From the NCBI RefSeq assembly GCF_003002055.1, contig NZ_PVZF01000010.1, forward strand, positions 62,001 to 126,000: DNA of 64,000 nt, written 5' to 3'. Below the pieces are notes generated by a model that worked only from the letters and a program-made list of their open reading frames with translations, did not search any database and was not told where the DNA came from. Origin of the DNA: Kineococcus rhizosphaerae (GTDB lineage Bacteria; Actinomycetota; Actinomycetes; Actinomycetales; Kineococcaceae). Positions 24,556-54,624 of this stretch are shown here, piece by piece. Position 1 is the stretch's first letter. Each line of letters begins with the position of its first letter. A program made the translations under genes and the position numbers.

Positions 24556-24596
24556 ACCTGCGGCCTCCGACGGTCCGGGGCTCGCCCGGGGGGGGT

Positions 24597-24647
24597 GGGT
24601 CGTGGACGCATCGCGCCAATGGGTTCGGCGCGATGCGTCCACGACCC
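24597..24647 (-). terminator. 21-base-pair perfect hairpin after the glycan operon
   Basis: A perfect 21-base inverted repeat (arms 24597-24617 and 24627-24647, nine-base loop) begins 18 bases beyond the stop of the last gene in the minus-strand operon. Without a T-run it resembles an actinobacterial hairpin terminator. It also insulates the operator region of the downstream HTH/Clp-N gene. The arm length is unusual. Confidence 0.6.
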
Positions 24648-24664
24648 GGTCCCGAGCGGGCGGG

Positions 24665-25633: not shown

Positions 25634-27625
25634 TCAGCGCCGCACGAACGTCAGCAGGACGAACGTGTAGTCGAGCCCGGTCCGCTTCCAGTGCACGGGC
25701 CGTTCGGGGTGGGCCAGGACGTCGTCGGTGAGGTCACCCACGAGGTCGAGGCCGACGCGGCCGGCGAGCGCGACGAGGTCGCGCAGGTCGGCCGGGGAGA
25801 AGATCTTCACGGGTGCGCCGTAGGCGGTGACCCCGGTGGTGTCCGGCGGGTCCTGGTCGTAGTCGGTGGACAGGGCCAGGACGCCACCGGGGCGCAGGAC
25901 GCGGGCGGTCTCGGTGAGGAAACCCTCGATCGGGACCCCGTGCTCGATGACGGACATGCACGTCACGGCGTCGAGGGAGGCGTCGGCCAGGCCCGTGTCG
26001 GTGACGTCGCCGCGGCGGAACTCGACGCCGTCGCGGTGCACGGTGGCCCCGAACTCCAGGTTGATCCCGGCCAGGGAGCCCCTCTCGCGGCCCAGGCCGT
26101 ACAGCCGCAGCCACGGCAGGACCGGTGAGTAGCGGGCCGAGCCGGCGTCGAGGACGCGGGCGGTGCGCGAGCCGTCGTCGGCGAGGGTCAGGACGGCGGC
26201 GACGGCGCCGAGCGCGTCCCAGTTCTTCGGGGCGTCGGGGTGGGCGGGCAGGCGCAGCCGGGCGGTCTGGGCGACGGCGTCGGCGACCTCGGCGGAGTCG
26301 TGCAGGACGCCGGTGCGCGGGACGCCGGAGGGCACGGGCCGGTCCGCGGGGGCCAGTCCGAGCCGGTGCTTCGCCAGCTGCTCGCCCACGCGGCGCTGGA
26401 CGCCGACACGGGTCCACAGGGCGTGCTCGGCGCCGCGCTTGGCGACGGCGAGCAGCCGGCCCCCGGGCGGGGCGGCGGCCGTGCCGCCCTCGGCGGCGTG
26501 GTCGACGGCGGCGGCGTAGGCGTCCCAGGGACCCTCGAGGTCGGGGGCTTCGACGTTGTCCCGCAGGCGTTTCAGCCCGCCGTCGGCCAGCCGCAGGATG
26601 CCGTCGGCGAGGGCCCGGACGCTGCCGGGTTCGACGAGGACCCCGTCGACGTCGTCGCGGACCTGCGCGGGGAAGGAGCCGACGCGGGTGGCGAGGACGG
26701 GCAGGCCGTGGGCGAAGGCGAGGACCGCGTTCTGCGAGGCCGTCCCCGACCGGTAGGGCAGGACGACGGCGTCGTGGGCGGCCATCAGCCCGGCGATCTC
26801 GGACGCGGGGACGTACCCCTCGCGCAGCTCGACGTGGCCGCGCATCCCGGGGGCGGTGGCGAGCTCGCGGACGCGGCGGCCGGCCGCGCCCCACAGCTCA
26901 CCGGCGATGGTGAGGCGGGCGTCGAACCCGCGCTGGTGGACCTCGGCGAGAGCCTCGAGGAGCAGGTCGAGGCCCTTGTACTCGCGCACGACGCCCAGGC
27001 TCAGCAGCCGGACGCCGCCGTCGCGCGGGACGCGGGACCCGGCTTCGCCCGCGAGCCGGGGACCGCCGGGCAGGTGCGGGGGCAGGTCGGCCTGCACGAC
27101 GCGGCGGGCGCCGTGGGCGTGGGCCAGCGCGGCCTGCGCGTCGGAGTGCACGACGACGCCGTCGACGGCCGCGAACAGGCGGCGGACGAGGAGCTCGTCA
27201 CCGGGCTTCGGCTCGTGGGGCAGGACGTTGTGCGCGACGACGACGGTGCGGGCCGTGCTGCGGGCGACCTTCATCGCGGCCAGGACCGTCAGCAGCGCGG
27301 GGACCTGCAGCGGGACGACGTGGGCCAGGACGACGAGGTCCGCCCCGGCCAGCCGGCGGCCCGTCGACCACCAGGACGCCGGCGACGACCAGGACAGCGG
27401 GCGCAGGGTCGGGGTGAATTCGGGCACCTCGGGAGTGGCGTCGGGCAGGCCCACCTGCCCCGGGTAGAGCAGCTCGGGGTACAGCCTGCTCCACGAGACG
27501 AGCTTCACGTCGGCGGCCGGGTCCTGCGCCAGGTGCCGGGCGAGCTCGGTGGTGTGGACGGCGATGCCGCCCTTGTTCGGGTGGGCCGGGCCGACGACCG
27601 CGATCTTGCGCCGCTCGTCGCTCAC
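25634..27625 (-). CDS. GT4 glycosyltransferase fused to a methyltransferase
   Basis: A 663-residue bifunctional protein. Residues 1 to about 400 are a GT-B glycosyltransferase of family 4: KIAVVGPAHPNKGGIAVHTTELARHL, LLSLGVVREYKGLDLLLEAL and HDAVVLPYRSGTASQNAVLAFAHGLPVLAT. From about 430 a class I SAM methyltransferase follows, with VLDAGSARYSPVLPWL near 491 in place of a canonical glycine loop, then CMSVIEHGVPIEGFLTETARVLRPGGVLALSTDYD. It could transfer and then methylate a sugar. The GTG at 27625 overlaps the stop of the 47-residue ORF. A natural fusion is more likely than a frame error because both halves read through without disruption. Confidence 0.85.
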   Translation of the reverse strand: MSDERRKIAVVGPAHPNKGGIAVHTTELARHLAQDPAADVKLVSWSRLYPELLYPGQVGLPDATPEVPEFTPTLRPLSWSSPASWWSTGRRLAGADLVVLAHVVPLQVPALLTVLAAMKVARSTARTVVVAHNVLPHEPKPGDELLVRRLFAAVDGVVVHSDAQAALAHAHGARRVVQADLPPHLPGGPRLAGEAGSRVPRDGGVRLLSLGVVREYKGLDLLLEALAEVHQRGFDARLTIAGELWGAAGRRVRELATAPGMRGHVELREGYVPASEIAGLMAAHDAVVLPYRSGTASQNAVLAFAHGLPVLATRVGSFPAQVRDDVDGVLVEPGSVRALADGILRLADGGLKRLRDNVEAPDLEGPWDAYAAAVDHAAEGGTAAAPPGGRLLAVAKRGAEHALWTRVGVQRRVGEQLAKHRLGLAPADRPVPSGVPRTGVLHDSAEVADAVAQTARLRLPAHPDAPKNWDALGAVAAVLTLADDGSRTARVLDAGSARYSPVLPWLRLYGLGRERGSLAGINLEFGATVHRDGVEFRRGDVTDTGLADASLDAVTCMSVIEHGVPIEGFLTETARVLRPGGVLALSTDYDQDPPDTTGVTAYGAPVKIFSPADLRDLVALAGRVGLDLVGDLTDDVLAHPERPVHWKRTGLDYTFVLLTFVRR

Positions 27626-27765
27626 GCGATCCCCCCGGTCCGCTCCGTCGCGCCGCCGGTGACGGCGCCTTCTTCCGGGACCGCGCAGCGAATCCGTCTG
27701 GAGCCGGCGCCCAGCGCCGGACGCGTTCCCTGCGTCCAGGCGCCGTCGCGGCGCTCGTCGCTCAC
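27622..27765 (-). CDS. 47-residue peptide, conserved MSDERR-WTQGTR type (copy 1)
   Basis: A small gene fitted exactly between two glycosyltransferase genes with GTGA overlaps at both ends. The product begins MSDERRDGAWTQGTRP and ends PEEGAVTGGATERTGGIA; it is basic then neutral, without membrane segment. The first 15 residues match the ORF at 54532-54606 at 13 positions, and several codons differ synonymously (GAG/GAA, CGC/CGG, ACG/ACC, GGA/GGG, CGT/CGC), which favours selection on the peptide. The next gene also starts MSDERR, so local duplication of a start region is an alternative. Function unknown. Confidence 0.6.
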   Translation of the reverse strand: MSDERRDGAWTQGTRPALGAGSRRIRCAVPEEGAVTGGATERTGGIA

Positions 27766-28688
27766 GCGCTGTCCCTCGAGCGCACGACGAGGTCGGCGAG
27801 CAGCGCGACCGCCCCCACGAGCAGACCCGACACCAGCAGCAGCACCGTGTTGGCCGGGAAGTAGAAGGGGTGGCGGACCATGTCGACGACGCCCTTGACG
27901 AACCCGAGGCCGAACAGGGTCAGCGCCAGCGGCATGAGCACGCGCAGCGGCTCGAAGTACATGATCATCCGCAGCACCTGCAGGATGTACCGGTAGGCGT
28001 CCTTGGTGAAGTGGAACTTCGACTTCCCCGCCCGCTTGGCGTAGGTCGTCGGCACGTACTTGATGTCGTGCTGGTTGCACAGGAACGACAGCGTGATCGT
28101 CGTGACGCACGAGAAACCGGCCGGCAGCAGCCGCAGGTACGGCAGCGACACCGACTTGCGGAACGCGCGCAGCCCGGAGTTCAGGTCCGGGATGCGCTGG
28201 CGGGCCAGGACCTCGGCGACCTTGCGGATGACGAACTTGGCCGGCACGCGCAGCGCCTTGTGCGAGCCCTCCTCGGTGGTGCGCGCGCCGACGACCTGGT
28301 CGTAGGAGTCGTCGTCCAGCAGCACCCGGACCAGCTCGGGGATGCGCTCGTTCTCGTACGACATGTCGGCGTCGGTCCACACGACGATCTCGCCGCGGGC
28401 CATCTGGGTGCCGATGCGCCGGACCGTGCCTGAGCCGCCGTTGCGGCGGAAGGCCACGACGCGCAGGTGCGGGTACTCGTCCTCGACCGAGCGCAGCACC
28501 TTCAGGGTGTCGTCGGTGGAGCAGTCGTCGACCGCCAGCAGCTCGTACGGCATGCCGTCGTCGTCCATCACCTTGGTGATGCGCTGGATCTCCAGCAGGA
28601 CGTGCGCCTCCTCGTTGTAGCAGGGCAGCACGATGGTGGCGACGGGGGCTGGTCCGCTCAGGGGCTGGACCTCATCTTCGACAGGCAT
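27762..28688 (-). CDS. Family 2 glycosyltransferase (polyprenyl-phosphate sugar transferase type)
   Basis: A 308-residue GT-A enzyme anchored by two C-terminal membrane helices (LMPLALTLFGLGFVKGVV and TVLLLVSGLLVGAVALLADLVV). The N-terminal IVLPCYNEEAHV, VDDCSTDDT and the metal-binding WTDADMSY near residue 106 are typical of DPM-like transferases that load a sugar on a polyprenyl phosphate. It is first in a four-gene operon with a small peptide, a GT4-methyltransferase and a flippase-like protein. TAAGCT (28703-28698, minus) nine bases before the ATG could be its -10. Confidence 0.9.
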   Translation of the reverse strand: MPVEDEVQPLSGPAPVATIVLPCYNEEAHVLLEIQRITKVMDDDGMPYELLAVDDCSTDDTLKVLRSVEDEYPHLRVVAFRRNGGSGTVRRIGTQMARGEIVVWTDADMSYENERIPELVRVLLDDDSYDQVVGARTTEEGSHKALRVPAKFVIRKVAEVLARQRIPDLNSGLRAFRKSVSLPYLRLLPAGFSCVTTITLSFLCNQHDIKYVPTTYAKRAGKSKFHFTKDAYRYILQVLRMIMYFEPLRVLMPLALTLFGLGFVKGVVDMVRHPFYFPANTVLLLVSGLLVGAVALLADLVVRSRDSA

Positions 28689-36067: not shown

Positions 36068-36200
36068 GTCCGAACTCTCCTGGATCCGGCAGGACTCGCC
36101 CAGGGGCTCGGAAGACGTCCGCGGGGTGTTCACCACGACGTCGATCCGTCGTGGTGCGGACCCCGTGCCCGACGACCCGGTGTCGCGTCCCCCTGCGGGC

Positions 36201-36289
36201 GCGCACGATCGATGCACCCGTCCGGCGACACACCGGTTCCCGGGCGGTCAGTCGCGGCGTGTCGGCGGACGGCCGCATCGATCGTGCGC
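36201..36289. repeat. Long imperfect inverted repeat
   Basis: Arms of 31 bases (36201-36231 and 36259-36289) pair at 28 positions; the outer 15, starting GCGCACGATCGATGC, are perfect. The loop is 27 bases. It starts 17 bases beyond the stop of the TetR gene at 36307 and could terminate it, but it is much longer than a simple terminator. A 12-base piece of the arm (CATCGATCGTGC) recurs near 18665, so a dispersed repeat family is possible. Confidence 0.65.
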
Positions 36290-36306
36290 ACCTCAGCGCC
36301 GGTGGG

Positions 36307-52472: not shown

Positions 52473-54535
52473 GGCGCGACGCCCGTCACGAGCCGGACGT
52501 CGATGCGCTGCAGCCCGTCGGGGCGTTCGGTGAGGACCCGTTCGTCCTCGGCGGTGCGACGCACGGCGACGGTCCGGACGCCGGTCGCTCCCAGCTTCTG
52601 CAGCACCTCCACGGGGTCGGTGTCCCCGCCCGCGGCGACGAGGACGGGGGTGCCGCCGGCGGCCCGGACCCGCTGCGCCTCGCGGTCCACGGCAGCCCCC
52701 AGCGCCGACCAGTACTCCGTCGTCCCGGGACGGCCCTGCGCGGTGGGGACGGTGATCGAGGCCGTCGGCACCCCGCACGTGCCGCGCAGGACCTGCGGCC
52801 ACTCGTTGCGCGAGCGCGGGTCGACGGCGAGCGCGACGTCACCGGCGGCGAAGCTGCGGCAGGCCTGCGCGACGGCCGCCGGTTCCCCCACCTCGGTGCG
52901 GGCCCACGCGAGCGGCGCGGTCCCGACCGCGGCGGGCACGAGGAGCAGGACGGCGGCGATCGCGACGCGCAGCCCCGTGAGGCGCTGGGCCGCGTAGCGG
53001 TCCACGACGAACCGGCACGCCGCCACCGCGAGCACGACGACGGCCGGGAGCACGACGACGACGAACCGGCGGTCGGCCCACGGGTGGTCGGGGGTGATGC
53101 CGGGGCGGTACAGCGTCAGCAGGGTCGAGCCGAGCGCCACGACGTAGGGGGCGGTCCACGACGGCAGGGGGCTGTGCTGCTGCACGCCGCGGACCAGCCG
53201 GGGCAGCAGGACGACGGCCGCGGCCCCGGCCAGGACGACGGCGGGCCAGCCCAGGTACCAGGCGATCCAGTTCACCGAGTGCTCGGCGTAGGTGCGGCCC
53301 CCGTCGACGGGCAGGCCCTGGGCCAGCTGCAGCCCCGCGACGAGCTTGCTGCCGGGGTCCTCGGGGTCCTGGCGCACGACCAGCCACAGCGGCCGGCTGG
53401 CCAGGACGGCGAGGACGACGCCGAGCGCGACGGCCAGCACGAGCGGCAGCCGGTCCGAGACGAGCCAGCGCCGCCGGGCCAGGAAACCGCCGCGCGCCAG
53501 CCGCGTCAGCACGAGGCAGACGGCGGTGAGGAACACCAGCCCCGCCACCAGCGGCAGCAGCGACCCCGCGATCGTCCCCAGGTAGGGCCGCGAGGTCAGC
53601 AGGGCCGAGCCCACCGCGAGCGCCGAGACGAGACCCGTGCCGGTGACGAGGGCGCGGGCGCCGGGGTGCCGGACGGCGAGCAGGAGGGCGACGACGGGGA
53701 CGAGGACGGCGACCTCGCGCAGGAAGTCGATGCGGACGAACCCGCACGCGCCGACGAGCAGGCCCGCGCCGCCGCCGAGGCGCGCGGCGGTGCGGCCGGT
53801 GGCGGGCAGCAGCGCGACCAGCAGCGACGCGGCGCCGAGCAGGACGAGCAGCGCGGGCGGTTCGGAGTAGGTGGAGCGGTTGGCGTGCAGGACGGGCTGG
53901 GCCAGCGCGAAGGCGCCGGCGGCCAGCGGCGCCCACGTCGCGCCGACGACGCGGGCGGTGAACCCGGCCAGGGCCAGCACGCCGAACGCGCCGAGGACGG
54001 CGGGCACGACGAACATCCCGGTCCAGCCGCCGGCCCACTCGCCCAGGGAGTACAGGGCGGGGGCGCCGAGCAGGAACTGCGGGACGACGTGGTCGCCGAC
54101 CTCGTAGAAGGCCGGCGAGGCGAGGGTGAGGTTCGGGTCGGCCAGGGCCGCGGCCCCGCCGAGGGCGGCGACGGACGCGTCGACGGGCAGGCCGTGGTGG
54201 GTGGCGAGCTGGTGGGCGTACAGGGCCACCGACCCGGCGTCGCGGCGCAGGACGACGTGCTCGGCGTGCGTGAGCGCGGCCCAGAGCCCGGCGGCGAGGG
54301 CGATCGCGGCGCTGCCGCCGGCGCTGCCCCACCCGGCGGCCACCACGGGGGTCCCCCACGCGAGGCGGCCGGCGAGGACGGCGACGACGAGGGCGACGGG
54401 CCAGGCGACGGCCGGGGTCCACAGGTCCAGCAGGACGAGGGGGACGGCGACGGCCGTGACCGCGGCGACCGCGGCGGCCAGGACGACGGGGACCCGGGTC
54501 AGCAGGATCCCGGCGGCGCGGGGGCTGTCGCTCAC
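52469..54535 (-). CDS. Large multi-pass membrane protein, glycosyltransferase 39/87-like
   Basis: A 688-residue integral membrane protein with about twelve or more hydrophobic helices and a C-terminal soluble part (from about 560). The first loop contains HLVLRRD-like ALTHAEHVVLRRDAGSVALYAHQLATHHG and LTLASPAFYEVGDHVVPQFLLG, resembling polyprenyl-phosphate-sugar-dependent GT-C transferases with an acidic catalytic loop. A polyprenol-linked sugar donor is inferred. GTG 54535 overlaps the stop of the 24-residue MSDERR-type ORF. Likely surface glycan or glycoprotein biosynthesis; the acceptor is unknown. Confidence 0.75.
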   Translation of the reverse strand: MSDSPRAAGILLTRVPVVLAAAVAAVTAVAVPLVLLDLWTPAVAWPVALVVAVLAGRLAWGTPVVAAGWGSAGGSAAIALAAGLWAALTHAEHVVLRRDAGSVALYAHQLATHHGLPVDASVAALGGAAALADPNLTLASPAFYEVGDHVVPQFLLGAPALYSLGEWAGGWTGMFVVPAVLGAFGVLALAGFTARVVGATWAPLAAGAFALAQPVLHANRSTYSEPPALLVLLGAASLLVALLPATGRTAARLGGGAGLLVGACGFVRIDFLREVAVLVPVVALLLAVRHPGARALVTGTGLVSALAVGSALLTSRPYLGTIAGSLLPLVAGLVFLTAVCLVLTRLARGGFLARRRWLVSDRLPLVLAVALGVVLAVLASRPLWLVVRQDPEDPGSKLVAGLQLAQGLPVDGGRTYAEHSVNWIAWYLGWPAVVLAGAAAVVLLPRLVRGVQQHSPLPSWTAPYVVALGSTLLTLYRPGITPDHPWADRRFVVVVLPAVVVLAVAACRFVVDRYAAQRLTGLRVAIAAVLLLVPAAVGTAPLAWARTEVGEPAAVAQACRSFAAGDVALAVDPRSRNEWPQVLRGTCGVPTASITVPTAQGRPGTTEYWSALGAAVDREAQRVRAAGGTPVLVAAGGDTDPVEVLQKLGATGVRTVAVRRTAEDERVLTERPDGLQRIDVRLVTGVAP

Positions 54536-54606
54536 GCCGCGACCCCGGAGCCCTCGCGCCGGCGCGTCCCCTGGGTCCAGACGCCGCCGCGCCGTTCGTC
54601 GCTCAC
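54532..54606 (-). CDS. 24-residue peptide, conserved MSDERR-WTQGTR type (copy 2)
   Basis: A short ORF from GTG 54606 to a TGA overlapping the next gene's GTG (GTGA). The product is MSDERRGGVWTQGTRRR followed by EGSGVAA. It matches copy 1 (27622-27765) at 13 of its first 15 residues with several synonymous codon changes, and like copy 1 it immediately precedes a glycan-type gene. TAGGTT (54620-54615, minus) ends eight bases before the GTG, so it may be the first, leaderless cistron of the operon. An upstream-ORF regulatory role is one possibility. Confidence 0.6.
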   Translation of the reverse strand: MSDERRGGVWTQGTRRREGSGVAA

Positions 54607-54614
54607 GCGGGGAG

Positions 54615-54624
54615 AACCTACAGT
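54615..54624. promoter_or_regulatory. Overlapping divergent leaderless -10 elements
   Basis: TAGGTT on the minus strand (54620-54615) and TACAGT on the plus strand (54619-54624) overlap in two bases, between the start codons of the 24-residue ORF (GTG 54606) and the TIGR03089 gene (GTG 54631). Only one polymerase could open this DNA at a time. No -35 is obvious for either. Confidence 0.5.

Follow-up and report, generated by a model that had tools for sequence, protein, structure and literature searches.

A short open reading frame between two glycosyltransferase genes of Kineococcus rhizosphaerae belongs to a dispersed hairpin-forming repeat that probably works like MIRU

Results

Copy 1 and copy 2 in the window

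The window, that is, the whole stretch of DNA analysed here, comprises 64,000 nucleotides of Kineococcus rhizosphaerae (contig NZ_PVZF01000010.1, positions 62,001 to 126,000 of the forward strand). As shown in Table 1, a short open reading frame (ORF; copy 1) lies between a GT2 gene and a GT4-methyltransferase gene and overlaps each of them by a GTGA, as a preliminary description of this DNA had reported. Its likeness to a second short ORF of the window (copy 2) was also confirmed, the starts of the two agreeing at 13 of the first 15 residues and at 38 of the 45 bases, with five synonymous codon differences. The residues MSDERR do open the gene after copy 1 as well, and in the relative G001 this gene has a different start, MNAPARRRVAVVG (translated by hand). 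In the match of copy 1 to the covariance model R2, the hairpin tip is split by a nested insert.

Copy 2 is common to the window genome (G000) and G001, where it takes another form: the G001 copy (L043, 1501-1653) contains an in-frame extra hairpin of about 47 bases with two 21-base arms, which the window copy does not have. Judging by the position of TAGGTT, copy 2 may be read from a leaderless mRNA. Two more hairpins in the window, at 24591-24653 and 36195-36296, obtained weak R2 scores (E about 0.007-0.009) and are most likely ordinary terminators.

Table 1. Positions of the two copies, their parts and the neighbouring genes in the window.
Feature	Position	Strand	Remarks
Copy 1 (L006), 47-codon mini-cistron	27622..27765	-	From the GTGA ending the GT2 gene to the GTGA beginning the GT4-methyltransferase gene
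Sense-strand hairpin of copy 1	27644..27759	-	51.3 bits against covariance model R2, which includes copy 1 among its sequences
Left GTGA overlap	27762..27765	-	Stop of GT2 gene / start of mini-cistron
Right GTGA overlap	27622..27625	-	Stop of mini-cistron / start of GT4-methyltransferase gene
Nested palindromic insert, 23 bp	27699..27721	-	Net +21 bp, in frame; in 4/24 copies, also alone elsewhere in the genome
Second copy of element head, 18 bp	27608..27625	-	First six codons (MSDERR) of the GT4-methyltransferase gene
Copy 2 (L020), 24-codon mini-cistron	54532..54606	-	Internally shortened derivative; no overlapping upstream gene
TAGGTT, possible -10 box	54615..54620	-	8 nt before the GTG of copy 2; kept in G001
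Upstream gene, glycosyltransferase family 2	27765..28688	-	Pfam; stop codon not included
Downstream gene, glycosyltransferase group 1 + methyltransferase	25637..27625	-	Pfam; stop codon not included

The short ORF is one copy of a dispersed repeat

Searched against its own genome, the peptide of copy 1 gave 5 matches and the DNA 46, eight of the latter being the nested palindrome only and others fragments. The resemblance of copy 1 to other places therefore goes beyond chance, and the earlier view that it exists at the peptide level rather than as DNA repetition was not confirmed. The short ORF belongs to a dispersed repeat whose copies measure about 120 bp, or 144 bp where the nested insert is present, and the suggestion of a duplicated start region came close to the truth, the actual object being a dispersed repeat with an ORF.

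We examined 24 ORF-bearing copies, 21 of 120-144 bp and three shortened ones (75, 48 and 45 bp), with the tandem pair L011/L012 among the 24; the set excludes matches that are only a gene-fused element head (L033, L035) and relatives that are hairpins alone. The copies resemble each other, similarity to a typed consensus reaching 97%. Nested in four of them is a 23-bp palindrome, TCCGGCGCTGGGCGCCGGCTCCA, which also stands alone, slightly changed, elsewhere in the genome (L026, L028, L029, L030, L032).

By eye, the standalone palindrome lies within a larger inverted repeat, CGGCACGTTG/CAACGTGCCG, at L028, L030 and L032, and close to an ORF start at L029. At L033 (on the minus strand, near position 1510 of the reverse complement) and L035 (near 1503), an element head seems to form the in-frame new N-terminus of a long ORF, beginning MSDERRGGASAGGG... 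and MSEEGRDGADRG... in turn. Apparently, element heads have been turned into N-termini of genes, and the GT4-methyltransferase gene of the window is among them.

Copies sit on stop/start overlaps between genes of different kinds

The position of the ORF relative to its neighbours was then compared over the 24 copies. The next start lies 4 nt before the ORF end in 23 of them (for L011 it belongs to the next tandem copy), the sole exception being L024, where it lies at +2; for L017 and L164 an in-frame start farther upstream is also possible for the next gene. The upstream frame ends in the same GTGA as the ORF starts from in 18 of the 24, counting L012, where it is the frame of the first tandem copy. 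The upstream stop falls slightly before the element at L008 and L164, a remnant appears to sit between upstream stop and element at L019, and no such upstream gene end was found within 40 nt of L020, L025 and L061. All 24 lengths are multiples of three, but this is a consequence of the definition of the ends and carries no evidential weight; the valid test is the count of the coupling geometry. A Shine-Dalgarno-like stretch gave a modest signal, with a mean duplex energy of -8.7 vs -7.5 +/- 0.42 in shuffled sequences (reached by 0/200).

Pfam searches at five sites showed that the genes beside the copies are mutually unrelated: besides the window pair, copies lie between mraY/murD-, gatC/gatA-, purK/purE- and glyA/folD-type genes. 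The supposed preference for glycosylation genes was thus not confirmed, and we rejected a particular tie to glycan genes. A ZMP/ZTP riboswitch match was seen upstream of the glyA-type gene (L015, 68-176), scoring 36.0 bits vs a gathering score of 39.

The element arrived by insertion

Comparison with related genomes showed sites without the element. At the glyA/folD site (L015), compared over ten relatives, a single plain GTGA without insert was present in 9/9 relatives showing both flanks, the tenth (G005) having no match at the site. In G001 the sites of copy 1, L007 and L024 are empty, that of L024 being CTGA. L009 is missing in the six relatives with an orthologous site (G001-G005, G010), where the sequence varies and in G003 consists of about 72 other bases.

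The bases before the left and right GTGA also resemble each other. Over 6-14 bases, identity was 0.48-0.54 between the two flanks of a site vs 0.34-0.40 in mismatched pairs (19 sites, tandem cases removed; p <= 0.0005 at all five lengths). We rely on this test rather than on an earlier one with 20 copies (0/20000 permutations), which took in four tandem or partly tandem cases. The direct repeats are clearest at L009 (14 bp) and L016 (16 bp, one mismatch); at some sites they are weak or absent, as at L015, where little is repeated beyond GTGA and the bases after it. The empty sites at five loci, together with these direct repeats, are what MIRU-like insertion at DTGA with duplication would leave, and the duplication over the 19 sites, weak or absent at some, is of the kind expected of a MITE. 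These results indicated that the element arrived by insertion.

The frame is kept and the peptide is not

Selection on the peptide was examined in 16 of the 24 copies over the first 108 bases, the nested insert being omitted in three. The pN/pS was 0.87, within the null range of 0.68-1.36 from 60 simulations, and the other five frames gave 0.76-1.19. Changes from the consensus numbered 54 at the first, 66 at the second and 61 at the third codon position, the evenness that the preliminary description had named as telling against its peptide reading. At L008 the middle stretch runs in another frame and then returns, and 7/9 changes within the one full-length orthologous pair (described below) alter the peptide. 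No selection on the peptide was detected in the 16 copies by pN/pS or codon position, or in the orthologous pair, and such selection was rejected on the pN/pS together with the peptide-altering changes between the orthologues. Of the earlier interpretation, the expectation of many copies before different genes stood, and that of low dN/dS, with the conserved regulatory peptide or small subunit it was to support, fell.

The frames themselves were open in 16/16 copies vs 13.0 expected when the same changes were placed at random, and all 16 were open in 3% of 400 random runs (P 0.03). The frame is kept, the peptide is not; the ORF of the repeat must stay open and in register, beside a conserved hairpin.

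A covarying hairpin is conserved in the repeat

A second repeat set in the genome has the same pieces as the ORF-bearing repeat. The main alignment contained 10 sequences aligned by MAFFT without structure, and the structure was taken from the fold of one of them. In this alignment 90.2% of cells are paired and 18/37 pairs change on both sides; covariation was 0.408 vs 0.138 after shuffling and at most 0.122 when the structure was slid. Further pair types gave a weaker signal, their count being reached by 19/500 shuffles. In 32 matches aligned by the model, an alignment that leans towards the structure and in which one match is the reverse strand within a palindromic copy, 26/37 pairs change on both sides and covariation was 0.361 vs 0.116. 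Nearly invariant parts are the apical CGACGGAGTCG with a small bulge, a 4-nt bulge, and a basal internal loop in which GACGAN faces GNGAGGAG or CGACGGAG.

Among the pairs that are mostly Watson-Crick, G-U occurs over 31 rows in 30 cells vs 13 for A-C (p 0.014, the cells not being independent); the counts are 8 vs 0 in the hairpins alone and 21 vs 4 in the ORF-bearing copies alone. The excess points to a fold on the transcribed strand. Against dinucleotide shuffles, two ORF-bearing copies reached z -2.9 and -2.4, values almost matched by the shuffles, and three hairpins folded alongside reached z -5.3 to -11.9. Searches of Rfam at five loci gave nothing above the gathering score at the elements, the sub-threshold matches being nearly all to microRNA families, and a known structured RNA family was rejected on this ground.

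Some copies suggest that the hairpin is not strictly required: the three short ones lack most of it and are unable to hold it, and a nested palindrome splits its tip in four, copy 1 included. Constraint in place was seen in one full-length orthologous pair, L021 and its counterpart L037 at the same site in the sister species G001, which differ at 9/123 positions; four-fold sites of the flanking genes are identical at 165/235 and 76/106, about 71%. The second shared copy, L020/L043, is less alike than this pair.

Related hairpins occur without the ORF

Nine related hairpins, sharing the conserved structure with the element, were found at six places, three of which hold tandem pairs. Judged by eye from stop codons, L145/L148, L149, L150 and L151 look like convergent gene ends. 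At the L149 site, 10/10 relatives have other intergenic sequences, mostly ordinary hairpins, and the conserved loops were seen in none of the ten. The tandem pair L152/L155 lies inside a GTGA-bounded frame of 80 codons, drawn by hand from stops. At L176-L184 and L195, the intergenes between the same two genes differ almost wholly among the relatives, and in most of these they form long near-perfect hairpins.

The element was found in few genomes

DNA searches within the genus gave matches at E <= 0.001 in 6/11 genomes, and readable element copies occur only in G000 and G001, the weak matches of the other four genomes having no element head. G001 yielded only two copies, and the remaining nine relatives no full one. 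The model R1 matched in 3/11 genus genomes, weakly in G005 (E 1.8e-4). Over the class, G000 was the only genome matched, both by DNA (1/394 genomes; two candidates per genome scored, E <= 1e-7) and by R2 under stricter filters (1/197 genomes), settings at which remote relatives could be missed in either search. Strict patterns gave 0 matches in viral contigs and 0 in genome contigs, collections that may omit the window genome or a very near one.

As for a mover, Y1_Tnp (IS200-like transposase) matched in 0/11 genus genomes (control positive in 5/14), and RVT_1 reverse transcriptase matched in 6/11 genus genomes and was not found in G000 (control positive in 3/14). On these results a Y1 transposase and a reverse transcriptase were both rejected as the present mover in the window genome. 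A parent element of the MITE kind, encoding a transposase and ending like the repeat, was not seen in the search of two enzyme families, Y1_Tnp and RVT_1.

Discussion

Copy 1 is, in our judgement with good confidence, a copy of a small non-autonomous mobile element working like MIRU. Such an element would insert at NTGA stop/start sites, mostly within operons and in the direction of transcription, and would duplicate the GTGA with some preceding bases. Its own start codon would take over the overlap of the upstream gene, followed by the open frame, usually an SD-like stretch, and a GTGA restoring the coupling to the downstream gene. With a start, an open frame and a new GTGA thus supplied, the operon would keep its translational coupling and the peptide would be a by-product; the mini-cistron itself is presumably translated. 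The transcript would fold into a long hairpin with conserved loops, and an enzyme acting in trans and recognising this hairpin would move the element. The hairpin may also have a role in the host.

Among the other explanations, the one that fares best is a host-useful intercistronic RNA element, bound or processed by an RNA-binding protein or RNase and spread by duplication, with mobility secondary. The near-invariant loops on covarying stems, the G-U excess on the sense strand, the related hairpins at other places and the slow divergence of the orthologous pair (7.3% vs about 29% at four-fold sites) all agree with it. It remains doubtful in view of only two copies being seen in G001 and no full one in the remaining nine relatives, the single full-length orthologous pair, and the existence of short and split copies.

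We regard as unlikely a second possibility, in which a recombinase or transposase would act on the hairpin as folded single-stranded DNA, with attC-like or REP-like logic, and RNA folding would be incidental. A structure kept while the stem sequence varies, conserved bulges and flanking direct repeats would suit such a substrate, but no Y1 transposase was found in the 11 genus genomes and G-U exceeds A-C on the transcribed strand, although a G-T-tolerant fold of sense-strand DNA is compatible with that excess.

A decaying, inert MITE or satellite, its structure and open frame being leftovers of a recent common origin, would account for the similarity of the copies to each other and to the consensus, and for three of them being shortened and four interrupted. 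This reading is largely contradicted, and we find it quite improbable, in the face of compensatory both-side changes in 18 to 26 of 37 pairs, frames that are kept and the slow in-place divergence of the one full-length pair. A conserved regulatory or functional short peptide, such as a leader peptide or small subunit, with the genes duplicated, is contradicted and very improbable: despite an ORF that in the examined copies links the left GTG with the next start and the N-terminal residues common to the two window copies, the pN/pS and codon-position counts fit the null, most changes between orthologous copies alter the peptide, L008 runs partly in another frame, and the neighbouring genes at the five sites tested are unrelated.

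A bolder form of the mobile-element reading, which we would hold at low probability, is a lineage-specific family of mobile RNA hairpins targeting stop/start codons. The conserved loops would be recognised by a single enzyme or RNA-binding protein, belonging to a class that has so far not been connected with repeats of this sort, which would spread the hairpin to gene ends, and the ORF-bearing subfamily would be specialised in entering operons with the coupling unbroken.

Comparison with known systems

Among the literature matches listed, we saw none that reported such elements from Kineococcus and none that described them as having a hairpin of this kind. The REP/BIME sequences are dispersed palindromic repeats accompanied by REP-associated tyrosine transposases, as far as the text consulted goes (PMC2817692). 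The Kineococcus element is likewise dispersed and palindromic; unlike them, it carries an ORF, sits on stop/start overlaps, and comes with no Y1_Tnp match in the window genome or ten relatives. The enterobacterial RU-1 (127 bp), RU-2 and RU-3, as summarised in their abstract, are intergenic repeats, mobile and 103-168 bp long, that contain open reading frames and are found fused into genes (PMC2759123). The Kineococcus element resembles them in being an intergenic, apparently mobile repeat with an ORF, whose heads are apparently fused into genes, and differs in its placing on stop/start overlaps and its translational bridge, neither of which the abstract mentions (PMC2759123).

The closest likeness is to MIRU. 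MIRU loci serve to type tuberculosis, and MIRU is reported to insert at DTGA, which is duplicated (Supply et al. 1997); as far as we know, its mover and the reason for its ORFs are open. In the parts of the literature consulted, MIRU is a short dispersed repeat, apparently mobile, inserted at start codons, with an ORF coupled by a 4-nt overlap, and a 2025 review ascribes to it the keeping of an operon coupled on insertion (PMC12548453); tandem units occur (PMC12548453, PMC4213456). The 24 copies described here are also dispersed between genes with the ORF in the direction of the downstream gene, the ends of the ORF overlap the upstream stop (18/24) and the downstream start (23/24), with one tandem case in each count, and tandem units exist in L011/L012. 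By layout, the Kineococcus element would therefore be said to work like MIRU. Unlike MIRU, it belongs to another lineage of Actinobacteria and has a covarying hairpin, with hairpin relatives that do not have this ORF. With some two dozen copies, relatives in which sites are empty, and a hairpin that covaries, it would be a second case of the MIRU layout and another system for testing how start codons are targeted, how translation is bridged and what the hairpin does.
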